Positions 36,694 through 59,525 of a stretch of 64,000 nt of DNA are shown here, one piece after another. This DNA comes from Halolamina sediminis (GTDB lineage: Archaea > Halobacteriota > Halobacteria > Halobacteriales > Haloferacaceae), in assembly GCF_001282785.1 (NCBI RefSeq), contig NZ_CVUA01000001.1:1054001-1118000 (forward strand). The letters run 5' to 3'. Both the position numbers and the translations under genes were made by a program. Every line of letters starts with the position of its first letter. Within the stretch, counting starts at the first letter, position 1. Under the pieces are notes generated by a model. That model made no database searches and was not told where the DNA came from. It saw nothing but the letters and a program-made list of their open reading frames with translations.

Positions 36694-36806
36694 TACCGGT
36701 CCTACCGGGGCCGTACACTTAGCACCCGCGTCCCCGACACCGTCGCGCCGAACCCGTGAACGTGTTCGGCACAACTGGGAGCCGGGCGCCGGACGGACCT
36801 CAACGC

Positions 36807-37175
36807 ATGCCCGCGACGAGCCTCGACGCCGAACGCACGTACAGCGACGGTCGGTTCACCGCCCGCGAGGTGTCCAAAACGACACACAGCAAGACTGTCT
36901 GTGGCTACTTCGAGCCCGGCCAGTTCATCCCCGTCCACGCACCCGACAGCGACGTGACCGTCGTCGTTCAGTCGGGCCACGGCGTCGTCCGGGACGGCAA
37001 GCGAACTCACGAGGTCGAACCCGGGTCGGTCGTGACAGTCCCCGCCGGCGAGAAGCGCGGCGTCAAAGCCGGCGACGAGCGGCTGGCGGCCGTGCTCGTG
37101 ACTGCGCCGCCGCCGAGCGACGCCGAGCACGAGCCCGTCCGACGGGGGATAAAGAACGACGAGTTCGAACCGTAG
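36807..37175 (+). CDS. Cupin-domain protein
   Basis: A 122-residue single-domain cupin. Strands with FEPGQFIPVHAPDSDVTVVVQSGHGVVRDG and HEVEPGSVVTVPAGEKRGVKAGDERLAAVLV follow the two cupin motifs, but the usual metal His residues are partly replaced (PVHAPDSDV in motif 1; no clear His in motif 2). It may bind a ligand rather than act as an enzyme. It is convergent with the next gene; the stops are adjacent. Confidence 0.8.
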   Translation: MPATSLDAERTYSDGRFTAREVSKTTHSKTVCGYFEPGQFIPVHAPDSDVTVVVQSGHGVVRDGKRTHEVEPGSVVTVPAGEKRGVKAGDERLAAVLVTAPPPSDAEHEPVRRGIKNDEFEP

Positions 37176-37913
37176 CTACCCCTCGTCGACCATCGCTAGC
37201 CGGCGGGTGTAGCGTCTGACCATCGTGCCGTCGTCGTCCTGCAGCAGGACGGTGAACCGCTTCTCCCCGGCGACGGTCTCGATCTCCCGGTCGTGGATCG
37301 TGAACTCGTAGGGGGGATCCTCGTCCGTGAGCAGCCGGCTGTCGCCGCTTCGCACCTCGATCCGGTCGACGCCGTCGGTTTCGCTCAGGTGGCAGTGAAC
37401 TGTCGTCCCGTTCGCCGTCGTCGACTTCGTACAGAGCAGGTCCGGGCTCACGTCGGCGCCGCTTGACTCCAGTGCGCTCTGGAAGTCGACGACCATCGGC
37501 CCGGCCGGGAACGTCCCGAGCACGACGACGACGGCGAGAAACGCCGCCAGCATCCCGTTGGGCAGTCGCTTCCCGACGCGCTGTCTGAGCCCCGGGCGCC
37601 GCCGCCACCGGAACGCGAGCGGGAGCACCACGAGGTGGTGGATCGGCCCGTAGACGATCAGCAGGAACCCGTACGCCATCGGGTAACGCAGCACGCCGAG
37701 CCCGGGGTTGTACGAGTAGACGAGGTTCGATCCGGCCCAGAGGAAGAAGCCGAAAAAGACCAGCCCGCCGGCTTTCAGCACCCGCCAGCTGACCGAGTTG
37801 GCGTAGTACACCGTCTTGAGCGCTCCCCAGGCGTTGCCGAGGAGGTCGCCGACGCTAACCGACGGCTCCTCGGCGTTCGCCCCGCCGTCGGTAGAGTCGC
37901 CGGACATCGTCAC
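37176..37913 (-). CDS. Membrane protein with extracellular C-terminal domain
   Basis: A 245-residue protein of unknown family. After an acidic N-terminus, four helix-like hydrophobic stretches are seen (about 45-65, 75-100, 118-140 and weak others). A C-terminal strand-rich domain follows (about 150-245; DGVDRIEVRSGDSRLLTDEDPPYEF, an Ig-like/bacterial surface pattern). It overlaps the ctaB stop by 4 nt, and so is in the same transcript as the heme-copper reductase cluster; a role in that enzyme's assembly is possible but not shown. Confidence 0.65.
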   Translation of the reverse strand: MTMSGDSTDGGANAEEPSVSVGDLLGNAWGALKTVYYANSVSWRVLKAGGLVFFGFFLWAGSNLVYSYNPGLGVLRYPMAYGFLLIVYGPIHHLVVLPLAFRWRRRPGLRQRVGKRLPNGMLAAFLAVVVVLGTFPAGPMVVDFQSALESSGADVSPDLLCTKSTTANGTTVHCHLSETDGVDRIEVRSGDSRLLTDEDPPYEFTIHDREIETVAGEKRFTVLLQDDDGTMVRRYTRRLAMVDEG

Positions 37914-38965
37914 TCACCTTTTCCCGGCCGGTCGTGCTCTCCGGAGAGCCGGAGTCGGAACGCCGCCACCCCGGCGCTCAGCCGGTCGGTAACAGGCCGC
38001 CACTCCCCGCCGACCGACGCCGGCACGCCCCGGAGCGACGGCTGTGCGGTCCACATCCCGACGAACAGCGCCGGCACCGTGGCCAGCGCCAGCAGACCGC
38101 TCCACGGCGCCAGCCCCGGGGCGACCCCGCCGGCGCCCCACGCGGCGAACAGGACGGCGAGGAACAGGTTCGACGTGAAAAAGGCCCGGACCGCGGCGCG
38201 CTCGGTGCCGACCCTGAGGAACGGGCGGAACCCGAGCACGAACAGCGCGCTCCCGACGACGGCGGTGGCGGCGTACGGCGGGCCGGCAAAGATGCCGACG
38301 GCGGCGACGGTCGCGACTGTCGACCAGACCGCGTACCGGATCCCGCGCTGGACCGTCGCCGTCGAGACGACGACCGGGAGCGTCGGCACGTCCACCGACG
38401 CGAACTCGTCGCGGTAGACGTACGCAAGCGCCCACGCGTGGGCGGGCGTCCACGCGAACACGACTAGCGCCATCAGCACTGGCTCGACCGTGAGCGGCCG
38501 GACGGCGCTCCAGCCGGCGAGGACGGGGAACGAGCCCGCGGAGCCGCCCAGCACCACGCCGAGCCAGTGGTGTCGCTTGAGCGCCACCGTGTAGAGGCCG
38601 ACGTACGCGGCGAACCCGAGCAGCATGTACACCACGGAGCGAAGCGGGAGCAGCGCGAGCCCTAGCGCCGTCCCGGCGAGCAGCAGCGCCGTCGCGAACG
38701 CGGCGGCGACGCGGTGGTCGAGGCGGCCGCTGGGGAGCGGCCTGTCGGCGGTCCGCGCCATGTGTTGGTCGAGGTTGCGGTCGTACCAGCAGTTCCACGC
38801 CGCCGCGCTCGCGGCGACGCAGGCGCCGGCGACGACAAAGCCCGCGAGCGTCACCGCCGACGCGCCGCCGGCGGCGAGCAGCGAGAACGCGCCGGTGACA
38901 CAGAGCAGCGTCACGATGCGGGGCTTGACCAACGACCAGAGGTGTGTGGGGAGTTCGGTGTCCAT
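37910..38965 (-). CDS. ctaB: Protoheme IX farnesyltransferase (heme O synthase)
   Basis: Polytopic UbiA-family prenyltransferase of 351 residues. The diagnostic aspartate motif is NCWYDRNLDQHMARTADRPLPSG. A second aspartate region is usual in the family near YRDEFASVDVPTLPVV. It makes heme O, the precursor of heme A, for the oxidoreductase encoded just upstream (3 nt away). The last 40 residues are soluble. About eight membrane helices are visible. Confidence 0.9.
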   Translation of the reverse strand: MDTELPTHLWSLVKPRIVTLLCVTGAFSLLAAGGASAVTLAGFVVAGACVAASAAAWNCWYDRNLDQHMARTADRPLPSGRLDHRVAAAFATALLLAGTALGLALLPLRSVVYMLLGFAAYVGLYTVALKRHHWLGVVLGGSAGSFPVLAGWSAVRPLTVEPVLMALVVFAWTPAHAWALAYVYRDEFASVDVPTLPVVVSTATVQRGIRYAVWSTVATVAAVGIFAGPPYAATAVVGSALFVLGFRPFLRVGTERAAVRAFFTSNLFLAVLFAAWGAGGVAPGLAPWSGLLALATVPALFVGMWTAQPSLRGVPASVGGEWRPVTDRLSAGVAAFRLRLSGEHDRPGKGE

Positions 38966-38968
38966 GAG

Positions 38969-40696
38969 TTAGGGGCCGATCTGCCAGATCGTCGAGAGCA
39001 GGTACCAGTTCAGCGCCCAGAGCGTGACGAAGGCGCCGAGGAACACGAGACAGAGCACGAACGTCCCGCGCATGCTGTAGGCGTGGGCGGCCTTCCCGTC
39101 GCCGTCGGTTCGCTCACCGCCGTCGGCCGCCGCGCGCTGCACGTCGCCGACGGGGCCGCCGTCGAACGGCTCCCCGAACAGCAGCGACGCCAGGGCGACG
39201 ACGACGAACAGCGCGCCGCCGAGGATGGCCAGTATCGCGGCGACGCCGAACACCGCGAAGAACGGCTTGGCCGCCGAGAAGCTGAACGCTGTCCCGGGGA
39301 TATCCATCACCGAGGGGTGGCGCCGGGGCACGCCGAACAGGATGCCGGTGTACATCATCATCAGGACGGTCAGCCCCATCGCGCCGCCGTAGAGATACGG
39401 CTGGATCTTCGCGAGAAGGCCCAGCGACCAGTCACGCCCGAACACCAGCCGGAGGACGTAGTAGCCCAGCCCCATGAACGCCAGCGTCGTCCCGGTCGCG
39501 ACGGTGGCGTGGAAGTGGCCGACCGTCGCGAGCGTGTTGTGCCAGGTCATGTTGAGCTGCATCTGGCCCATCATGACGCCGGTGATCCCGCCGAGGAAGC
39601 CGAAGAGGATGATGCTCAGAATCGTCGCCGAGAACCCCGGATCGTCCCAGGGGCTGGACCAGAGCCAGCCGAACAGGCCGCCGGCTTTCCCCTTCGCCCG
39701 GCGGCCGACTTCGAGGCCGGCCGGGATCGCAAAGGCGTGTATCATACTCGCCAGCACCGCGCCGTAGGCGGCGTAGGAGGTGTTCCACATCCGCCAGCCG
39801 GCGGAGACCACCGGGTCGGACATCAGGTGGTGGGCCGCGCCGAGGTTGATGAAGAACAGGTACAGCACGAACGCCGCCCGGGAGACTTTCTGGCTCGCGA
39901 CGACGGCGCCGCCGACGACGTGGGTCAGGAAGTACCAGACGGTGATCATCGCCAGCAGGTTGATCTGCTGGCTCCCGTGGCCGATGATCCAGTACATCTG
40001 CCGGTAGAACGCGGGGTCGATACTCTCGAAGTAGCCGACGCGCCACAGCAGCGTCGGCACGTAGGTGATCAGCCCGCCCAGCAGCGCCTCCAGCGCGACG
40101 ATGCTCGTGATGAACGCGCCGAACGTCACCAGCGGGAGCGTCTTGCTCGGGTTCTCCTGCTGGTGGTTCCAGAGAGTCGCGAGGAACGGCACCGCCGCGA
40201 CGATGGCGCCGAGGACGAACACGCTCGCGCCGAGGTAGAACTGCCAGCTCGACGGCAGCGGGACGTAGGAGGTGAGCAGCGGCGCCTGGTTGGGGTACTC
40301 GGTGAGCAGGATGGCGGCGTTGACGAGCACGGCGCCCGCGGCCATCACCACCCAGCCGACTTTCGCGACCCGCGGTAGCGAGAGCCGGCGGCCGAGCACG
40401 AACGGGCCGCCGACGTAGAGGATCGCGATCTCCATGAACACCATCCAGAAGATGAGCAGGTTCCAGGCGTGAACGCTGAGGTACGTGTAGAAGTCGCCCG
40501 CCGAGAGCAGGCCGATCGCCTCCCAGCGGGTCAGCGCCACGGCCACCGCGAACGCGCCCCCGATCGCGAGCGCGAGGATCGCGGTCAGGCCGTACAGCTT
40601 CACCATGTCCTCCGCGGACTTGTGGATGCTGAGCCCGGTGACGTTACACTCTCGGAAACCGTCGCTGTCGTACTCGTAGGTGCTGAAACCGAACAT
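38969..40696 (-). CDS. Heme-copper reductase subunit I lacking the active-site tyrosine
   Basis: A 575-residue catalytic subunit. His ligands are seen: His76 (low-spin heme, SVHAWNLL), His240, His289, His290 (copper B, GHGSQQ and AAHHLM), and His394 and His396 (GHFHA) for the heme irons. In oxygen reductases the sequence after the first copper His is HPEVY or HPIVY; here it is HGSQQ, so Gln244 replaces the cross-linked Tyr and Ser242 the channel Glu. Archaeal families with Tyr replaced (eNOR type, as I recall) are nitric oxide reductases. About twelve to thirteen membrane helices. It may therefore reduce NO rather than O2. Confidence 0.85.
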   Translation of the reverse strand: MFGFSTYEYDSDGFRECNVTGLSIHKSAEDMVKLYGLTAILALAIGGAFAVAVALTRWEAIGLLSAGDFYTYLSVHAWNLLIFWMVFMEIAILYVGGPFVLGRRLSLPRVAKVGWVVMAAGAVLVNAAILLTEYPNQAPLLTSYVPLPSSWQFYLGASVFVLGAIVAAVPFLATLWNHQQENPSKTLPLVTFGAFITSIVALEALLGGLITYVPTLLWRVGYFESIDPAFYRQMYWIIGHGSQQINLLAMITVWYFLTHVVGGAVVASQKVSRAAFVLYLFFINLGAAHHLMSDPVVSAGWRMWNTSYAAYGAVLASMIHAFAIPAGLEVGRRAKGKAGGLFGWLWSSPWDDPGFSATILSIILFGFLGGITGVMMGQMQLNMTWHNTLATVGHFHATVATGTTLAFMGLGYYVLRLVFGRDWSLGLLAKIQPYLYGGAMGLTVLMMMYTGILFGVPRRHPSVMDIPGTAFSFSAAKPFFAVFGVAAILAILGGALFVVVALASLLFGEPFDGGPVGDVQRAAADGGERTDGDGKAAHAYSMRGTFVLCLVFLGAFVTLWALNWYLLSTIWQIGP

Positions 40697-41677
40697 CTAG
40701 ACCACCTCCACGACGCCCTTCATCCCGATGCCGAGATGGGGCTCGCAGTAGTACGCGTACACGCCACCCGTCTCGAACGTATGTTCGACGCTGAACCCCT
40801 CGTTCTCGAGGGGCTCGTGTCCACCCCAGTTTGCACCGTCGGGCTGGGAGTCGACCAGGAGATTGTGGTTGTTCGACGCCCACTCGAACGTCACCGTCGT
40901 CCCCTCCGAGACGGAGACCGCGGGCGGGTCGAACGCGGCGGTCCCACCCTCGCCGTCGCTGCCGACGGTGACGGTGACCTGATCGGCGCCGGTCTCGTCG
41001 ACGGTCGTCCCGTCGTAGTTCTCCGTCGCGCCGCCGGCGGCGTCGCCGGTGAACCAGCCGCCGTAGTCGGCGTCGCCCCCAGACCCGTTCTCGCTCTCCT
41101 CGGGGGCAGTGACGGCGGACTCGTCGTAGTCCTGCACGACGAACTTCCCGTGCATCGAGCGGTGCCCCTCGCCGCAGAACTCGTTGCAGACGACGTGGTA
41201 CGTGCCCGGGTCGTCGAACGTCATCTCCAGCACCCACTCGTAGCCGGGGAGCACCTGCAGCGAGATCTGCTGGCTCAGGTTGTCCGCGTTGCGCACGGAG
41301 AAGCCGTGCTGGACGTCGTAGGAGCCGAGGTGGAACCGGTACGTCTCGCCGGGTCTGAGCACCGCCGGCAGCCCGTCCCACCCCCACTGGAGCGCGCCGA
41401 CGTACACGTCGTTCTCCGCGGGGACGAGCAGCTCCTCGCCGTCGACGGTGAGCGTGCCCGCCGACTGCTTGTACGTCTGGACCTTCTGCCGGAGCGCCTC
41501 GGTCGAGACCTCGTACGTCTCGCCGGTCTGGTTCTGCGCGCCGAACTCGGTCCAGCCGAGCATCCAGCCGAACAGCGTCAGGGCCCAGACGCCGCTGATG
41601 CCCAGCCAGATCGACTCGCGTCGGTTGATCTTCTCGCTCCACCAGTCGCCGTCGGGTGCGGTGATCGGGGAGTCCAT
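40697..41677 (-). CDS. Heme-copper reductase subunit II with CuA and blue-copper domains
   Basis: A 326-residue protein with one N-terminal helix (about 22-42). The first cupredoxin (about 75-185) has all CuA ligands: His124 (DVQHGF), Cys164, Glu166, Cys168, His172 and Met175 in CNEFCGEGHRSMHG. The second (about 235-326) is a halocyanin-like blue-copper domain with His271 (SNNHNLL) and Cys311, His314, Met319 (CEPHLGIGM). The fusion puts an electron-donating cupredoxin on subunit II. The stop abuts the subunit I start. Confidence 0.9.
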   Translation of the reverse strand: MDSPITAPDGDWWSEKINRRESIWLGISGVWALTLFGWMLGWTEFGAQNQTGETYEVSTEALRQKVQTYKQSAGTLTVDGEELLVPAENDVYVGALQWGWDGLPAVLRPGETYRFHLGSYDVQHGFSVRNADNLSQQISLQVLPGYEWVLEMTFDDPGTYHVVCNEFCGEGHRSMHGKFVVQDYDESAVTAPEESENGSGGDADYGGWFTGDAAGGATENYDGTTVDETGADQVTVTVGSDGEGGTAAFDPPAVSVSEGTTVTFEWASNNHNLLVDSQPDGANWGGHEPLENEGFSVEHTFETGGVYAYYCEPHLGIGMKGVVEVV

Positions 41678-41683
41678 CGGCGA

Positions 41684-41827
41684 TCACCCCATCGGGACCG
41701 TCAGCACGTCCACGACCCCCCAGACGACGTACGCCAACATCCAGTAGATGATGGCGGCGAGCGCGAGCAGCCAGATGCTGTCCAGCAACTGCTGTGGCCA
41801 CGGTGGCGTCTCACTCTCCGTCGACAT
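41684..41827 (-). CDS. Small accessory subunit, single-pass membrane protein
   Basis: A 47-residue protein: a soluble start MSTESETPPWPQ and a single membrane helix (LLDSIWLLALAAIIYWMLAYVVW) with a short tail ending VPMG. It lies 6 nt upstream of subunit II. Small one-helix subunits of this size are common in type-B and related heme-copper enzymes. Function inferred from position. Confidence 0.65.
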   Translation of the reverse strand: MSTESETPPWPQQLLDSIWLLALAAIIYWMLAYVVWGVVDVLTVPMG

Positions 41828-41947
41828 ACCCGGAACACGACGCAACAACCCCCTGAACCTACTCCCGAACGTATTCGCCGTGGCGGCCACGGCGGGTGAT
41901 GCGACTCGCGGTTCGGAACGGGTGTGAGAACGGCGGCCGCGGACGTC

Positions 41948-50289: not shown

Positions 50290-51770
50290 TCAGGCGAACA
50301 GCGCCGTCGCGGCTTCCTGTGCGGTCTCGATCACCGGCCCGAACCCGGGCAGCAGTAGCACCGTACCGATCAGCGCGATCGCCAGCGCGGCGTACAGCGC
50401 CGTCGGCGCGCCGGCGAGGTCGTGCTCGCCCTCCTCGAACCACATCGCCCGCACGACGCGGGAGTAGTAGTACAGCGAGAGCGAGCTGTTGATCACGGCG
50501 ACCACGACCAGCCACCAGAGGCCGGCCTCGACGGCGCCCGCGAACAGGAACAGCTTCGAGAAGAAGCCGCCCAGCGGCGGGACGCCCGCCAGCGAGAACA
50601 GGAACGCCGTCATCGCCACCGCGGCGAACGGCTTCTCGGCGCCCAGCCCGTTGTAGTCCTCGAACCGGCGCCCGACGCCCCAGTTCTCGGCCAGCGCGAC
50701 GAACAGGAACGCACCCGTGTTCATGAAGCCGTAGACGAACAGGTGGGCCATCGCGGCGCCCATCACGTCGCCGTTCGTCGTGGCCTCAGCGGAGATCGCG
50801 GCGAGACCGATCAGCACGTAGCCGGCGTGCCCGATCGAGGAGTACGCCAGCATTCGCTTGACTTTCTCCTGGGTGGCGGCGGCGAAGTTACCGAGCACCA
50901 TCGTCGCCACCGCGAGGATCTGGAACAGCAACGCCCAGTCGATCCCCGCGCCCGTCGCGGCCCCGATCGGGAAGCCGACGACGAACACGCGGAACGCCAG
51001 CGCGAAGCCCGCGGCCTTCGAGGCAGAGGAGAGGTACGCCGAGACCGGCGCGGGCGCACCCTCGTACGCCTCGGGCGCCCAGAAGTGGAACGGCACCGCG
51101 GCGGTCTTGAACAGGAACCCCCCGGCGACCATCAGCACGCCGACGCCGGCGATCCCGGTTCGGTCGCCGAGCCCGGACTCGAACGCCGCTGCCACGTCGG
51201 GCAGCAGCAGCGAGCCCGTGGCGCCGTAGATCAGCGAGACGCCGAACACGAAGATCGCCGAGGAGAGTGCGCCGATCAAGAAGTACTTCAGGCCGGCCTC
51301 GCTGCTCCCGCGGTCCTCTTTCAGGAACGCGACCATCGCGTACGACGGCAGACTGACCAGCTCCAGCGCGACGAACGCGGTCGCCAGCGAGTTCGCACTC
51401 GCCATCAGCGACATCCCCGTCGTCGCGAGCAGCATCAGCCCGTACAGCTCGCCGCGGTTCCCGCCGCCGAAGTAGTCGTACGCCGCCAGCGACACCAGGA
51501 TCGTCACCGCGGCAAACAGCGCGGTGAAGAACAGCGACATCCCGTCGACGACGATCGCGTCGGCGTACAGCGAGATGCCTTCGGTCGCCAGCCCGGTGTC
51601 GGCGGATAGGAACCAGCCCGCGGTCGCGAGCGACGCCAGCGAGCCGACCACGGAGATACCCGTGAGCACGCTCGCGTCGGTCGAATCGGGCCACACGCTG
51701 TCGTAGAGCAACACCGCAAGCGCCGTGAGCCCCAGCAGGAAGGTCGGCGTCAGCGGCGGTGCCGTCACCA

Positions 51771-51771
<1 letters not shown>
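50290..51771 (-). CDS. nuoN: Respiratory complex I-like subunit N
   Basis: Antiporter-like proton-pumping membrane subunit, 493 residues and about fourteen helices. Family segments: AFVALELVSLPSYAMVAFLKED, GLKYFLIGALSSAIFVFGVSLIYG, PFHFWAPEAYEGAPAPVSAYLSSASKAAGF and AYSSIGHAGYVLIGL, with the Glu and Lys of the hydrophilic axis. Last gene of the nuo operon (its start overlaps the nuoM stop by one base). Electron donor is discussed at nuoB. Confidence 0.95.
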
Positions 51772-53300
<1,529 letters not shown>

Positions 53301-55385
53301 TCAGAACCACCCTCCGTAGATCGCAAACCCGACGAGTAACACGGTCAGCCCGACCGTGAGCATCGCGGCGTAGTGTGTCACCAGCCCGTCCTGGATCCGC
53401 TTGATCCGGGAGCCGCCGAACAGGCTCACGCTGGAGACGCCGTTGACGATGCCGTCGACGACCGCCTGATCGAACGTGTCGGCGACCTTCGACAGCGGGA
53501 GCACGACGCGCTCGGCGATCCAAACCTGGTACTCGTCCTGGTAGTAGTTGTTGTACAGCACCTCCCGCAGGCTGCCCAGCTTCTCGGTGTGGGGCTCGGG
53601 GTCGGCGCCGCCGTAGAGGACGTACGCCGAGCCCGCGCCGAACAGCGCGAGCGCAAGCGAGAGCAGCCCCACCAGGTACGACGGCAGGTCCGCCGCCGCC
53701 ATGCCGGCGCCGTAGTCGGCGAACAGCAGGTGGTGGTAGTGGTAGCCGCTGGTGCCGAGCGCTTCGGCCCAGCCGGCGCCCTCGGTCCCGTAGAGCCACT
53801 GATGCAGGAAGTCGATCTCCGCACCCGTGAGGTCCTTGACCGGGACCATGTTGACGAACCCGACGGTCGTCGCCAGGATCCCCAGCACGACCAGCGGGAG
53901 CTTCACGTTCCAGCCGCCCTCGTTGGCCTCCTCGGCCGTCTCGGAGCGGGGCTCGCCGTGGAAGGTGAGCATCACCATCCGGAACGTGTAGAAGCCGGTG
54001 AACAGCACCGCGATCAGGCCCATCCCGTAGGCGACCAGCAGCGCGGTGCCGAGGCCGCTCGTGGTGCCCAGCCCGTGGACGAGCGCCTCGTACAGCACCT
54101 CGTCCTTCGACCAGAAGCCGGCGAAGGGGACGATGCCCGCGAGCGCGAGCGAGCCCGCGAGGAACGTGTAGTAGGTGACGGGCATCTTGTCTTTGAGCCC
54201 GCCCATCTCCCACATGTCCTCGTTGTGGTGCATCGCGATGATCACCGAGCCGGCGCCGAGGAACAGCAGCGCCTTGAAGAACGCGTGGGTGAGCAGGTGG
54301 AACGTGCCGGCGACGTAGCCGCCGGCGCCAAGCCCCAGCATGATGTAGCCGTACTGGGAGATGGTGGAGTACGCGAGCACCTGCTTGATCTCGTTTTTGA
54401 CGAGCCCCATCGACGCCGCGAACAGCGCGGTGAACGCGCCGACGAGCGCGATCACCGCAAGCGCGGTCGGCGAGAGCGCGTAGAACCCGTACATCCGGGC
54501 GACGAGGTAGACGCCGGCCGCGACCATCGTCGCCGCGTGGATCAGCGCCGAGACGGGGGTCGGACCCTCCATCGCGTCGGGTAGCCACGTATGCAGCGGG
54601 AACTGGGCGGACTTGCCGATCACGCCGCCCAGCACCAGCAGCCCGATCGCGGTGAACCACGCCTCGGGACCGAGTCCGAGGAACGTGTTCACCGTCACCT
54701 CGCCGTTGATCGCCTGCTCGGCGAGATGCGGGAACGAGTGCTCGCCCGCGAACTGCGCGGTGCCGAACGTCGCGAACACGGCGACGACGCCGATCAGGAA
54801 GAAGTAGTCACCGAAGCGGGTGACCAAGAAGGCCTTCTTCGCGGCGCTGGGCGGGCCGGCCTGGCGGAACCAGAAGCCGATCAGCAGGTACGAGCAGAGC
54901 CCGACCAGCTCGAAGAACATGAACGCCATCAGGAGGTTGTCGGCGACGACGAACCCCAGCATCGAGGCGGTGAACAGGCCCAGCCCGGCGTAGTACCGGG
55001 GCAGCCCCGTCTCGTTCTCGTCGTTCATGTAACCGAGCGAGAACACGTGGACCAGCAGCGCGACCAGCGAGACGATGAGCAGCATCATCGCCGACAGCGG
55101 GTCGAGCAGCAGCCCGAACGTGAGTTCGAGCGGCTGGCTCAGGCTACCGGTCGCTTCGGTGCCGGCGGCCCACGTGTAGATCGTCTCGTTGTACGTCTCG
55201 CCGCCGCTGACGGTGAGGAACACCCACGCGGAGAGCAGCAGCGAGCCGGCGGTCGCCGCGATTCCGGGGAGTGCGCCACCTTTCGGTAGTAGGTCCCGCC
55301 CGGAGAGGGCGACCCCGACCGCGAGACAGAACGAGAGGAACGGTAGCAGTACGATCGCCGGTGCGTAGTCGAATGCTCCTACCAT
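53301..55385 (-). CDS. nuoL: Respiratory complex I-like subunit L
   Basis: Largest pumping subunit, 694 residues. Shown: FFELVGLCSYLLIGFWF, PLHTWLPDAMEGPTPVSALIHAATMVAAGVYLVAR, LAYSTISQYGYIMLGLGAG, THAFFKALLFLGAGSVI and a C-terminal lateral-helix region (about 540-690). The piston-like helix HL is consistent with the long C-terminus. Start abuts nuoK stop by 1 nt. Confidence 0.95.
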   Translation of the reverse strand: MVGAFDYAPAIVLLPFLSFCLAVGVALSGRDLLPKGGALPGIAATAGSLLLSAWVFLTVSGGETYNETIYTWAAGTEATGSLSQPLELTFGLLLDPLSAMMLLIVSLVALLVHVFSLGYMNDENETGLPRYYAGLGLFTASMLGFVVADNLLMAFMFFELVGLCSYLLIGFWFRQAGPPSAAKKAFLVTRFGDYFFLIGVVAVFATFGTAQFAGEHSFPHLAEQAINGEVTVNTFLGLGPEAWFTAIGLLVLGGVIGKSAQFPLHTWLPDAMEGPTPVSALIHAATMVAAGVYLVARMYGFYALSPTALAVIALVGAFTALFAASMGLVKNEIKQVLAYSTISQYGYIMLGLGAGGYVAGTFHLLTHAFFKALLFLGAGSVIIAMHHNEDMWEMGGLKDKMPVTYYTFLAGSLALAGIVPFAGFWSKDEVLYEALVHGLGTTSGLGTALLVAYGMGLIAVLFTGFYTFRMVMLTFHGEPRSETAEEANEGGWNVKLPLVVLGILATTVGFVNMVPVKDLTGAEIDFLHQWLYGTEGAGWAEALGTSGYHYHHLLFADYGAGMAAADLPSYLVGLLSLALALFGAGSAYVLYGGADPEPHTEKLGSLREVLYNNYYQDEYQVWIAERVVLPLSKVADTFDQAVVDGIVNGVSSVSLFGGSRIKRIQDGLVTHYAAMLTVGLTVLLVGFAIYGGWF

Positions 55386-55386
55386 C

Positions 55387-55689
55387 TTACCACCTCATCG
55401 ACTGCGGAAGGGTCACGTCGACGTCGTTGAAGTTGCGGTACAGCACGAGGATGATGCCGATGCCGACAGCCACTTCGGCCGCAGCCAGCCCCATCACGAA
55501 CAGGCTCATCACCTGCCCGGTGAGGTTTCCCCACTGGAGGCTGAACGCCACGAAGTTGATGTTCGCGGCGTTGAGCATCAGTTCGACCGACATCAGGAAC
55601 AGCAGCGCGTTCTCTCGGGTCAGCAGGCCGTAGAGGCCGATGGAGAACACCGCTGCCGACAGTACGAGGTAGTACTCGATGGGGACCAT
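55387..55689 (-). CDS. nuoK: Respiratory complex I-like subunit K
   Basis: A 100-residue three-helix subunit. YLVLSAAVFSIGLYGLLTRENALLFLMSVELMLNAANINFVAF contains the conserved helix-2 Glu (SVELML); MGLAAAEVAVGIGIILVLYRNF has the second Glu region. Its start codon overlaps the nuoJ2 stop by one base. Confidence 0.95.
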   Translation of the reverse strand: MVPIEYYLVLSAAVFSIGLYGLLTRENALLFLMSVELMLNAANINFVAFSLQWGNLTGQVMSLFVMGLAAAEVAVGIGIILVLYRNFNDVDVTLPQSMRW

Positions 55690-56069
55690 CAGTCCGCCAC
55701 CTCCTCGTCAGGCTCCTCGCTACTTTCCGAGGAGCGTTGCTCTTCGCGACCGCCGTCGGTGAGGGCGGTCACGTACGAGCCGTCGGTCTGTCGGCGCGCC
55801 AGCGTCACGGCGGCGACGGTCGCGACCACCAGCACGAGGCCGATGATCTCGAACGCCGCGAGAAAGCCCTCGACGGCGATCGCCGACATGCTCTGTAAGT
55901 CCATCAGCGCGTAGCCGATCCCCGCGACCAGCGACGCGTCCTCGGCGAAGCCCGCGACCTCGCCAAAGCCGCTCGTGAGGAACACTGCCGCGAGCACGAC
56001 GAACAACACCGACGCCGCCAGCCCGTTGGCGTAGTTGGTGTCCTCCTTGAGTTCGGGTCGCGTGACCAT
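55689..56069 (-). CDS. nuoJ2: Respiratory complex I-like subunit J, C-terminal half
   Basis: Subunit J is split into two genes. This 126-residue part carries helices of the C-terminal half (ASVLFVVLAAVFLTSGFGEV and AVEGFLAAFEIIGLVLVVATVAAVTLARR). The end (TDGSYVTALTDGGREEQRSSESSEEPDEEVAD) is hydrophilic. The DNA of this tail holds two perfect hairpins (55712-55735 and 55748-55770). Its start follows nuoJ1 by 1 nt. Confidence 0.9.
   Translation of the reverse strand: MVTRPELKEDTNYANGLAASVLFVVLAAVFLTSGFGEVAGFAEDASLVAGIGYALMDLQSMSAIAVEGFLAAFEIIGLVLVVATVAAVTLARRQTDGSYVTALTDGGREEQRSSESSEEPDEEVAD
55712..55770. repeat. Two hairpins in the tail of nuoJ2
   Basis: GCTCCTCG (55712-55719) pairs with CGAGGAGC (55728-55735) around an 8-nt loop. 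GACCGCC (55748-55754) pairs with GGCGGTC (55764-55770). They lie in the coding sequence of the non-conserved C-terminal tail, as an adjacent pair like those in dapA and dapF, but without the shared TGGCAGCCG ends. Confidence 0.6.
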
Positions 56070-56336
56070 CTAGCTGTACACCTCCGGTTTCGGCTGTTCG
56101 GTTCGCGTGAGCATGACGGCGAACGTGATGAGCACGAGCACGCCCCCGATGTAGACGAGAATCTGCATCGTCGCCGGGAACGTGGCCTGCAGCATCACGT
56201 AGTGGACCGCCAGACTCGTCAGCGCACCGCCGAGCAGGAGTGCCGAGTGCCAGGGGTCCTTCACGAGGACGACCCCCAGCGCACACCCGACCGTCACGGC
56301 GGCGAACAGCGCGAACGTGATTGTCTCTGTGACCAT
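56070..56336 (-). CDS. nuoJ1: Respiratory complex I-like subunit J, N-terminal half
   Basis: An 88-residue membrane protein with the first three helices of subunit J: ITFALFAAVTVGCALGVVLVKDPWHSALLLGGALTSLAVHYVMLQATFPATMQILVYIGGVLVLITFAVML. The tail RTEQPKPEVYS is soluble. The ATG at 56336 is 5 nt from the nuoI stop. Splitting of J is usual in haloarchaea. Confidence 0.92.
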   Translation of the reverse strand: MVTETITFALFAAVTVGCALGVVLVKDPWHSALLLGGALTSLAVHYVMLQATFPATMQILVYIGGVLVLITFAVMLTRTEQPKPEVYS

Positions 56337-56341
56337 TGTGT

Positions 56342-56803
56342 TTACTGGTAGTCGACCTCGCCGGCACCCTCGCCGACCCACGCGGATCGGTCGGGGTTGC
56401 GGGCTTCGAGGGGGTCGCTCCCCTTGTACCACGGCACGTTCTTCAGCTGTTCCTTGTTGTAGGCGAACTCGTCTTTCGTGTCCGCCGTGAACTCGAAGTT
56501 CTGGGTCAGCAGGATCGCGTCGACGGGACAGACCTCCTCGCACAGCCGGCAGTAGATACACTGCCCGATGTGGAGGTTGTACTGCTCGCCGTTGCGCTGC
56601 TCGTCCATCACGATCTGGATCGTGTCGTTCGGGCAGACGTTCTCACACTGCCGACACCAGATACAGCGCTCCTGGCTGAACTTGTGGACCCCGCGGAATC
56701 GCGGGCTCACTTCGGGCGCGACCTCCGGGTACTCGACCGTGAAGGTGTTGCCGTCCAACGCGTGCTTCATCGTCGTTGCCATGCCTTTCAGGATTCCGAT
56801 CAT
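56342..56803 (-). CDS. nuoI: Respiratory complex I-like subunit I (two [4Fe-4S] clusters)
   Basis: A 153-residue ferredoxin-like subunit that transfers electrons to NuoB. The two clusters N6a/N6b are in CIWCRQCENVCP and CIYCRLCEEVCP. The start MIGILKGMATTMKHALDG at 56803 overlaps the nuoH stop by 4 nt; earlier codons lie in nuoH and are not part of it. Confidence 0.95.
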   Translation of the reverse strand: MIGILKGMATTMKHALDGNTFTVEYPEVAPEVSPRFRGVHKFSQERCIWCRQCENVCPNDTIQIVMDEQRNGEQYNLHIGQCIYCRLCEEVCPVDAILLTQNFEFTADTKDEFAYNKEQLKNVPWYKGSDPLEARNPDRSAWVGEGAGEVDYQ

Positions 56804-57864
56804 ACAACCACCCCCACGATTAGGGCCGTGAGCACCAGATTGAGGAAGGAGAGTTCGAGCATCCCCTTCCAGCCGACTTCGATCAGCTGGTCGATACGCA
56901 GCCGCGGCGCCGCCGAGCGCAGCCACTGAGTGAACAGGAAGAAGGCCCAGATCTTCACCACGAACCAGAGGAAGCCGATGCTCTCCGGGCCGGGGCCGGC
57001 CGCGCCACCGAGGAACAGCACCGCGGTGATGGCACCGCCGAGGAAGATGTGCAGGAACTCACCCAGGTACAGCAGCACAAAGTACACCGAGGAGTACTCG
57101 GTCTGGAACCCGGCGACGATCTCCGTCGGCGCCTCGGGGATGTCGAACGGGTTCCGCCCCACCTCGGCGACGTTGGCCACGAGGAACAGGACGAACGCGA
57201 ACGGGTTGACGATCGCGAACCACGACGGGATCGCGATGCCGCCGATGGAGACCAGCGTCTCCTGCTGGACGGCGACGATCTCGCTCATCCGGAGCGAGCC
57301 CGTAAACAGCACCACCGAGATCCCCGTCACGACCAGCGGGATCTCGTAGGCGAGGTTCTGGGCGACCGCGCGCAGCGCGCCCAGCATCGAGTACTTGTTG
57401 TTCGACGCGTAGCCCGCCATCACCATGCCGAGGCTGGCGATCGACGCGACCGCGAACACGTACGCGAGCCCGACCTCGGGGTCGGCGAGCTGGATGCCGC
57501 TGCCCATCGGGATCACCGCGAAGCCGAGCATCGCCGAACCGGCGACGATCAGCGGCGCCACGTCCCACGCCGGGCGGTCGGCGCCCTCGGGGACGATCAG
57601 CTCCTTCGAGAGGAGCCGGAGCGCGTCGGCCGGGATCGTCCCGATCCCCTTCGGACCGATTCGGTCGGCGGCGATGCGGTCGGTGAACGCCGCGGTGATC
57701 TTCCGCTTTGCCCACGGGCCGGCGACGCCGGTCATCGCGAGCATCACGTTGCCGACGATGAAGGCCGCCAGCAGCGCGGCGACGAACTCGCCGACTGCGC
57801 CGGAGCCACCGAGCCCGAGCAGGTTCACGAGCAGGTCCGGCAGCGGGGTCTCGGCCTGCAGCAT
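56800..57864 (-). CDS. nuoH: Respiratory complex I-like subunit H
   Basis: A 354-residue membrane subunit at the quinone site. Features: RKITAAFTDRIAADRIGPKGIGTIPADALRLLSKELIVPEGADR, EIPLVVTGISVVLFTG and NPFDIPEAPTEIVAGFQTEYSSVYFVLLYLGEFLHIF, with the conserved acidic residues of the E-channel. ATG 57864 shares its base with the nuoCD stop (TGATG); a TTG one codon earlier is not needed. Confidence 0.95.
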   Translation of the reverse strand: MLQAETPLPDLLVNLLGLGGSGAVGEFVAALLAAFIVGNVMLAMTGVAGPWAKRKITAAFTDRIAADRIGPKGIGTIPADALRLLSKELIVPEGADRPAWDVAPLIVAGSAMLGFAVIPMGSGIQLADPEVGLAYVFAVASIASLGMVMAGYASNNKYSMLGALRAVAQNLAYEIPLVVTGISVVLFTGSLRMSEIVAVQQETLVSIGGIAIPSWFAIVNPFAFVLFLVANVAEVGRNPFDIPEAPTEIVAGFQTEYSSVYFVLLYLGEFLHIFLGGAITAVLFLGGAAGPGPESIGFLWFVVKIWAFFLFTQWLRSAAPRLRIDQLIEVGWKGMLELSFLNLVLTALIVGVVV

Positions 57865-59525
57865 CAACGGTCCACCTCCCCGAGTACGATGTCGAGGCTA
57901 CCCAGCGCGGCGATCATGTCGGGGATGTACTCCCCGTTGCTCATCTCCGGCAGCGTCTGGAGGTTCGAGAAGCACGGGCTCCGGATCTTGAACCGGGCGG
58001 GCTTCTCGGTGCCGTCGGCCCGGATGTACACGCCGAGTTCGCCCTTCGCGCCCTCGACGGTGCGGTAGATCTCCGTATCGTCGTCCGGTCGCAGCGTCCG
58101 CGGGACGTTGGCCTGGATGTTGCGCTCCTCTTCGGGCCAGTCCTCGAGCAGATCGACACACTGGTCGATGATCTTCGCGGACTCCTCGACTTCCCGGAGG
58201 CGGACGAGCAGTCGGCTGAAGTTGTCACAGCCGTCCTCGACGGGCACCTCCCAGTCGAGCTCGTCGTAGTAGCCGTACGGGTCGTCACGCCGGATGTCGT
58301 AGTCGATGCCGGAGCCACGCGCGACCGGGCCGGTGGCGCCGTAGTTCTTCGCGACCTCCTTCGGCAGGATCCCGGTGTCGACGGTCCGCATCTGGAGGAT
58401 CTCGTTGCCCGTGATCAGGTCGTGGTACTCCTCCAGCCGCTCGGGGAGCCCGTTCACGAACTCGCGGATCGACTCGAAGAACTCCTCGCGGGGTTCGGGC
58501 AGGTCCCAGACGACGCCGCCGAGTCGGAAGTAGTTGAACATCAGCCGCTGCCCCGTGAGGTCCTCGAGGATGTTCTGGACCTCCTCGCGGTCACGGATCG
58601 CGTACATGAAGATCGCGGTGAAGTCGCCGTAGATGTCGAGCGCGAACGTCCCGACGGCGAGCATGTGGGCCGCGATCCGGCAGAGCTCCGCGCCCATGGT
58701 GCGGATGATCTGTGCGTACTCGGGCACCTCGATGTCCGCGAGGTCCTCGGCCGCGCGGGCATACGCCCACTCGTTGAGCAGCCCCGCCGAGATGTAGTCC
58801 CAGCGGTCCGGGTACGGCATGATCTGGTGGCGGTACGTGCTCTTCTGGGCCATCTGCTCCTCGTTGCGGTGGAGGTAGCCGATGTCCGGCTCCACGTCGA
58901 TCACCTGCTCGCCGTCGAGTGTGGTCTCGAGGTGGAGCACCCCGTGGGTCGCCGGGTGGTGGGGCCCGATGTTGACGAACATCGTGTCCGAGTCGGAGTC
59001 GGCACGCTGGTCCTCCTGCAGCGGGTTCGCGTTCTCCCGCAGCGGGACCATCTGGGGCCGATCCTGGTCGTAGTCCAGCCCCATCGGGTGGCCCTGCCAC
59101 GTCTCGGGCAGCAGGATCCGCCGCAGGTCGGGGTGGTCGTCGTACTCGACGCCCACCAGGTCGTACGCCTCGCGCTCGTGCCAGTCGGCGGTCCGGAACA
59201 CGGGCTCCGCCGACTCGCTGACGGGGTTCTCCGAGTCGGTCGGCACGACGACGCTGACCTCGTCGGTCGGGTCGTCGAACTTCTTCAGGTGGTAGATCGA
59301 CTCGTAGCGGTCGGGGTACTCCTCGGCGGTGACCAGCGAGAGATGGTCGTAGCCCGCCTCGTTCTTGAGCCGATCGAGGGTCTCCTGGACCGTGTCGGGC
59401 CGGATCACGAACGCCGGCGCGTTCTCGTGGTCGTCGCGGTCGACCACGAGGTCGCCGAGCAGCGCCTCGAGTTCGGTCTCGCCGGACTCGATCTCCGGGG
59501 TCTCCGACTCTTCCTGTAGGCTCAT
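57864..59525 (-). CDS. nuoCD: Respiratory complex I-like fused subunits C and D
   Basis: One 553-residue chain. Residues 1-170 are NuoC (ADWHEREAYDLVGVEYDDHPDLRRILLPETWQGHPMGLDY). Residues about 180-553 are NuoD: NIGPHHPATHGVLHLETTLDGEQV, the quinone-site histidine region, DIGYLHRNEEQ, and GELGVYIRADGTEKPARFKIRSPCF. The C/D fusion is common to haloarchaea and E. coli. It contains the electron-accepting quinone pocket. Confidence 0.95.
   Translation of the reverse strand: MSLQEESETPEIESGETELEALLGDLVVDRDDHENAPAFVIRPDTVQETLDRLKNEAGYDHLSLVTAEEYPDRYESIYHLKKFDDPTDEVSVVVPTDSENPVSESAEPVFRTADWHEREAYDLVGVEYDDHPDLRRILLPETWQGHPMGLDYDQDRPQMVPLRENANPLQEDQRADSDSDTMFVNIGPHHPATHGVLHLETTLDGEQVIDVEPDIGYLHRNEEQMAQKSTYRHQIMPYPDRWDYISAGLLNEWAYARAAEDLADIEVPEYAQIIRTMGAELCRIAAHMLAVGTFALDIYGDFTAIFMYAIRDREEVQNILEDLTGQRLMFNYFRLGGVVWDLPEPREEFFESIREFVNGLPERLEEYHDLITGNEILQMRTVDTGILPKEVAKNYGATGPVARGSGIDYDIRRDDPYGYYDELDWEVPVEDGCDNFSRLLVRLREVEESAKIIDQCVDLLEDWPEEERNIQANVPRTLRPDDDTEIYRTVEGAKGELGVYIRADGTEKPARFKIRSPCFSNLQTLPEMSNGEYIPDMIAALGSLDIVLGEVDR

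Follow-up and report, generated by a model that had tools for sequence, protein, structure and literature searches.

A haloarchaeal heme–copper reductase operon with glutamine at the tyrosine site probably encodes an eNOR-type nitric oxide reductase

The question raised by the present locus is which reaction is catalysed by a heme–copper enzyme whose subunit I carries glutamine in place of the catalytic tyrosine of O2 reductases. The locus lies within a window of 64,000 nucleotides of the Halolamina sediminis genome, the window being the whole stretch of DNA that was analysed, and its features are collected in Table 1. Subunit I is matched by the COX1 profile PF00115 in a Pfam profile search (181 bits); the original prediction had placed its gene correctly at 38969–40696, although the strand has to be corrected to minus. 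The predicted reading of the active site, HGSQQ after the CuB ligand His240 with Gln244 at the position of the O2-reductase tyrosine, was borne out by translation and alignment, and the remaining heme and copper ligands (H76, H289, H290, H394 and H396), which had been described as complete, were all found, all six histidines being present.

Table 1. Features of the putative eNOR operon, in window positions
Feature	Position	Strand	Basis or remark
Putative eNOR subunit I, heme–copper catalytic subunit, 575 aa	38969..40696	minus	translation, PF00115, tree, orthologues
Active-site motif H240-G-S-Q243-Q244	39965..39979	minus	CuB ligand His240 and Gln in place of cross-linked Tyr
Subunit II, 326 aa: CuA cupredoxin domain with a single TM stretch at the N-terminus and halocyanin at the C-terminus	40697..41677	minus	profile matches
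C-terminal halocyanin (type-1 blue copper) domain of subunit II, residues about 217–325	40703..41029	minus	TIGR03102
Small single-TM subunit, ba3 subunit IIa counterpart	41684..41827	minus	47 aa from internal ATG
Heme O synthase (CyoE/CtaB, UbiA family)	37910..38965	minus	PF01040 and heme o synthase models
Uncharacterised membrane protein, 245 aa	37176..37913	minus	N-terminal TM helices, C-terminal beta-sandwich domain, two invariant Cys

Three full heme–copper subunit I genes are present in the same genome. The A-type O2 reductase (HPEVY) and the ba3-type O2 reductase (HPVVY; G000:C1:1052409-1053782, just left of the window) both keep the tyrosine, and the glutamine substitution is therefore specific to the eNOR gene. 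The motif H-[GS]-[ST]-Q-Q was found in 42/42 haloarchaeal orthologues at the loci read, a set gathered by BLAST without using the motif and hence unbiased by it. QQ is also present in all 83 bacterial relatives, 80 of which were fetched by two scan patterns; since one of these contained QQ, the motif itself in part determined which bacterial sequences were collected. Plasmid-borne relatives from Thermus, Thermomicrobium and Defluviimonas read H-[GS]-[SA]-Q-Q. Across 126 eNORs, Q243, Q244 and N246 are invariant, whereas six B-family O2 reductases have V, Y and W at these positions, and the eNOR-specific polar residues of subunit I include E89, Y231, Y279, N305 and Y308. Judged from these sequences, the glutamine at the tyrosine site is neither chance nor a sequencing error. 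Other substitutions were also seen: four bacterial eNORs, Thermus among them (including L035 12001-13659), have HFK in place of HFH at alignment position 396, and thus Lys at the expected position of a low-spin heme ligand, and an A-family-like oxidase of Dechloromonas (L176 1438-3033, plus strand) reads HPAVH, with His at the tyrosine position, its close relative L175 reading HPAVY.

As a check, a phylogeny of the heme–copper families had been proposed. In a maximum-likelihood tree of 56 sequences, sampling A-, B- and C-family enzymes and, of the other NO reductases, cNOR and qNOR, 28 Gln-bearing proteins including the window protein and bacterial eNORs form one clade (100/100), which is sister to, and not inside, the B-family (ba3) O2 reductases (99/96), with the A-family, the C-family, cNOR and qNOR far from it. 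The traits of cNOR and qNOR are absent, Gln rather than Glu standing at the site and a CuA subunit II in place of NorC or a quinol-fed single chain. The AlphaFold2 model of subunit I (pLDDT 84, pTM 0.89) has the oxidase fold; in a structural search with this model the A- and B-family oxidases tie (Z 35–37), and the fold by itself thus cannot discriminate between these families, the structural-alignment identity being 27–28% to ba3 versus about 16–22% to the A-type, with Thermus ba3 giving the closest solved-structure sequences (E about 1e-40).

The eNOR family is reportedly described by Hemp & Gennis (2008) and Murali et al. (2024, PNAS), and its characterised member is said to come from Rhodothermus marinus. 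Gln at the tyrosine site is the published diagnostic of eNOR, with Asn in sNOR and CuANOR and Asp in gNOR (PMC8756737, Table A4), and, according to a further paper, eNOR has been characterised biochemically, is a relative of the B-family O2 reductases and can reduce NO under microoxic conditions (PMC11388526). The occurrence of eNOR in Natronomonas and other Halobacteria is already on record in Schwartz et al. (2022), who also treat the family and note its misannotation as cytochrome c oxidase (PMC8756737). The public bacterial relatives of the window protein are indeed annotated as 'cbb3-type' or 'b(o/a)3-type cytochrome c oxidase', as had been expected of genes of this kind. Gln, which the original prediction named for some archaeal eNOR-type enzymes, is the right residue, but eNOR is not mainly archaeal: a scan of species genomes gave at least 493 confirmed relatives, and the 80 of these examined are all bacterial (Deinococcota, Pseudomonadota, Nitrospirota, Gemmatimonadota, Bacteroidota, Acidobacteriota and others) and all QQ. 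Bacterial eNOR members are 39–45% identical to the window subunit I. The assignment of the window protein as a haloarchaeal member of the known eNOR family is well supported, agreeing with every eNOR criterion that can be checked by sequence. The CuA-type NO reductase suggested by the original prediction is thus supported, as an enzyme of the eNOR kind, by the Gln diagnostic, the clade and the complete CuA site of subunit II, and the operon very probably encodes an eNOR-type nitric oxide reductase, whose NO chemistry we infer. An eNOR (GH-S-S-QQ) is also encoded, together with a cNOR, by Candidatus Nitricoxidireducens bremensis (L147), an organism enriched on NO as the sole electron acceptor, in whose description the text leaves eNOR unmentioned (PMC10390337).

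The operon runs on the minus strand in the order small single-TM protein, subunit II, subunit I, heme O synthase and 245-aa membrane protein. The gene immediately upstream of subunit I encodes subunit II, whose CuA site is intact, with the ligands H124, C164, E166, C168, H172 and M175 conserved. The small subunit would be 68 aa long from an alternative GTG start at 41890 and may be compared with the small subunit of ba3 (PMC3128077); a homologue of it immediately precedes subunit II in most haloarchaeal eNOR loci and in 50/80 bacterial ones. A heme O synthase homologue is found in 55/80 bacterial eNOR loci. Among the 42 haloarchaeal loci, a protein of roughly 470 aa is encoded upstream in 28, being a fused heme A/O synthase in the one member scanned, and a copper-ATPase-like gene lies upstream in 25. 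Beside eNOR in bacteria lie genes for an Rrf2 regulator, a DUF542 protein, cytochrome P460 and a hemerythrin, in keeping with an NO reductase. The operon thus resembles the eNOR family in Gln at the tyrosine site, the CuA cupredoxin subunit II, B-family kinship, a predicted retained proton path and occurrence in Halobacteria, and differs from the bacterial eNOR loci examined in its additional 245-aa membrane protein and in the halocyanin of its subunit II. Other genes were noted nearby: a cupin protein is encoded beside the operon (window 36756-37175, plus strand), cupin-type genes also lying near eNOR in Thermus and near a ba3 locus of Deinococcus, and Complex I (nuo-type) genes lie a few kilobases upstream on the same strand as the operon (window 50290-59525, minus strand). 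In several bacteria a degenerate COX1-like protein of 439–481 aa is encoded near eNOR (L201 16001-17320, minus; L202 9673-11118, plus; L207 4496-6520, minus), the one in L207 being fused to SCO1.

The genomic setting was examined in 292 genomes of the same class, the haloarchaea, in which eNOR was identified by a BLAST-type search and NirK above a curated cut-off. eNOR is present in 53/292 genomes (about 18%), with 61–100% identity. NirK is present in 156/292, namely in 50/53 genomes with eNOR versus 106/239 without (Fisher p 1.5e-12), and, among the genomes lacking qNOR, in 17/18 with eNOR versus 21/110 without (p 7e-10). The effect persisted in a within-genus permutation covering the genomes among the NirK matches listed (35 observed versus 23.9 expected, a value reached in 0/200,000 permutations). 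In at least 16 genomes, eNOR and NirK are no more than 12 kb apart. This co-occurrence is association, not catalysis. qNOR is found in 118/156 NirK-positive genomes and also in 35/53 eNOR genomes, so eNOR and qNOR are not simple substitutes; 17 of the 18 eNOR genomes without qNOR have NirK.

In the Halolamina sediminis genome, NirK (446 bits) is accompanied by a NosZ-like protein, which is full-length but scores 525 bits against a cut-off of 625. Neither cNOR nor qNOR is detectable, which leaves eNOR as the only evident NO reductase of this genome, although qNOR is present in all five other sampled members of the genus. NarG had no match in this genome, and nitrate respiration is therefore not evident. 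About 7 kb from the NosZ-like gene, the same genome encodes a degenerate 451-aa COX1-like protein (L004 1303-2658, minus strand); PF05940 (NnrS) gave no match to this weak COX1-like protein, nor to the PF05940 controls.

According to a survey of haloarchaea, these organisms have no NOR class other than qNOR (NorZ) (PMC8400030). The haloarchaeal eNOR is like qNOR in its predicted conversion of NO to N2O, and qNOR is likewise tied to NirK in haloarchaea; unlike eNOR, qNOR is single-chain, quinol-fed and C-family derived, with Glu at the site, and is absent from the Halolamina sediminis genome. The gene content suggests that haloarchaeal eNOR also reduces NO, which would be at odds with qNOR as the only class (PMC8400030). 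The recently recognised eNOR has been missed by denitrification surveys of haloarchaea, and since it occurs in about 18% of the sampled genomes, with 18/53 of these lacking qNOR, calls of partial pathways and predictions of hypersaline N2O need correction. Strains with NirK, a NosZ-like gene and eNOR, and with no detectable qNOR, suit a direct genetic test of eNOR-based NO respiration. What is added here is the gene-content case in haloarchaea, the 245-aa partner protein and the halocyanin fusions, the family itself being already known.

Even if NO is the substrate, the enzyme may serve NO detoxification under oxygen rather than energy-conserving denitrification, a reading to which we give the smaller but still a substantial share of belief. 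It draws on the unmatched NarG, on the NO-stress-type genes that adjoin eNOR in Thermus and Defluviimonas, and on the retention of qNOR in 35/53 eNOR haloarchaea, which is compatible with a separate role; set against these, NirK and a NosZ-like gene occur together in the Halolamina sediminis genome, as fits respiration from nitrite to N2, and the K-channel residues described below suggest electrogenic turnover.

It is far less probable, and indeed very improbable, that the enzyme is a B-family O2 reductase with O2 respiration as its main role, in which Gln stands for Tyr and the redox tyrosine either comes from another helix, as it does in cbb3, or is not needed. The closeness of Thermus ba3 in sequence and structural alignment, the annotation of the public relatives as oxidases and the eNOR-invariant Tyr279 on helix VII would agree with such an enzyme. 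The tyrosine of cbb3 lies on helix VII at a position that we take to be six residues before the CuB HH pair, and in the alignment this position (283) is Ile/Leu in 125/125 relatives, with no Tyr there in subunit I either, so that the cbb3 solution was rejected; Tyr279, invariant and eNOR-specific, lies ten residues before the HH pair and hence not at the cbb3 position. According to the original prediction, clustering within the O2 reductases with a tyrosine from another helix would have spoken against an NO reductase, and what was found is a clade outside them and Ile/Leu at position 283. All B-family O2 reductases moreover fall outside the eNOR clade (100/100), two normal Tyr-bearing O2 reductases are already present in the genome, and an O2 reductase does not predict the within-genus tie to NirK. 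That the enzyme belongs to another CuA-bearing NOR subfamily (sNOR, gNOR or bNOR/CuANOR) is scarcely credible: all of these likewise have subunit II of the cupredoxin type, and a B-family origin holds for several (PMC8756737, PMC11388526), but Gln stands in 126/126 sequences where the published residue is Asn (sNOR, CuANOR) or Asp (gNOR) (PMC8756737, Table A4).

For the eNOR-type NO reductase we consider the following working. Electrons would pass from the halocyanin tethered to subunit II to CuA and on to the low-spin heme (H76/H396), and then to the heme/CuB centre (heme H394; CuB H240, H289 and H290), where two NO would be converted to N2O and water; Gln244 stands in the place of the cross-linked redox tyrosine, which is needed for O2 splitting and not for NO reduction. 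Subunit I Y255, S317 and H320 and subunit II E21 are invariant or nearly so in eNORs and align with the K-channel positions of ba3, which we take to be Y248, S309, T312 and E15-II, His in eNOR standing where ba3 has Thr. These residues predict one conserved proton channel, and protons would probably be taken from the cytoplasm by this K-channel-like path (Glu21 of subunit II, His320, Ser317 and Tyr255), so NO reduction would conserve energy, unlike that by cNOR. In Halolamina sediminis, eNOR may thus remove the NO made by NirK and hand N2O to the NosZ-like enzyme. The enzyme resembles the ba3 oxidases of Thermus and Natronomonas in its subunit I fold, small subunit IIa, CuA subunit II and K-channel residues, and differs from them in the missing cross-linked tyrosine, in Q-Q..N for V-Y..W, in His at the T312 position and in its separate clade.

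The halocyanin domain of subunit II is matched by TIGR03102 with 102 bits, above the cut-off, and is 46% identical to the halocyanin domain on NirK of the same genome. This NirK (484 aa; G000:C1 about 826478–827932, L200:6479-7933, minus strand) carries its own C-terminal halocyanin domain. Subunit II is clearly extended (323–376 aa) in 10/42 haloarchaeal loci read, most others ending at about 180 aa, and none of the bacterial eNOR loci examined shows halocyanin fused to subunit II. Halocyanin is the redox partner of the haloarchaeal ba3 oxidase as well, being fused there to the small subunit (PMC3128077), and the fusion found here extends this theme to eNOR. No earlier report of halocyanin fused to subunit II of eNOR was seen in the literature.

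A profile derived from an alignment of the 245-aa protein was run over the 292 haloarchaeal genomes. The full-length protein is present in 52/53 eNOR genomes, i.e. in 52/52 testable ones, the contig of the 53rd ending inside the eNOR gene, and was found by this search in 0/239 eNOR-free genomes; where one genome carries two eNORs, the protein is likewise present twice. It was not seen in the bacterial eNOR loci examined, and no report of its tie to haloarchaeal eNOR was seen in the literature. No Pfam or NCBIfam family matched the protein, Pfam and PDB profile searches with its family gave weak bacterial-Ig-like hints only, and its single-sequence model has a pLDDT of 62 (about 80 in the C-terminal beta-sandwich), with SoxY, fibronectin III and Ig-like folds as the best matches, none significant (E above 0.001). 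The protein is a candidate for an extra eNOR subunit or an assembly factor, and its invariant presence makes it a specific marker for haloarchaeal eNOR and a candidate new component. In the boldest reading, for which the chances appear close to balanced but slightly adverse, haloarchaeal eNOR would be a larger, distinct enzyme: the 245-aa protein would be a dedicated subunit, or a factor obligatory for assembly, halocyanin on a tether would replace the diffusible donor, and the enzyme would be the energy-conserving, sole NO step in denitrifiers without qNOR.

Relics of the eNOR operon were observed in two eNOR-free haloarchaea (L223 7081-7855; L224 7405-7873). In one of them the small subunit is kept, and the N-terminal 76 residues of subunit II are followed by the C-terminal 133 of the 245-aa protein, as a deletion inside the eNOR operon would leave them; the other is a frameshifted fragment of the 245-aa gene.
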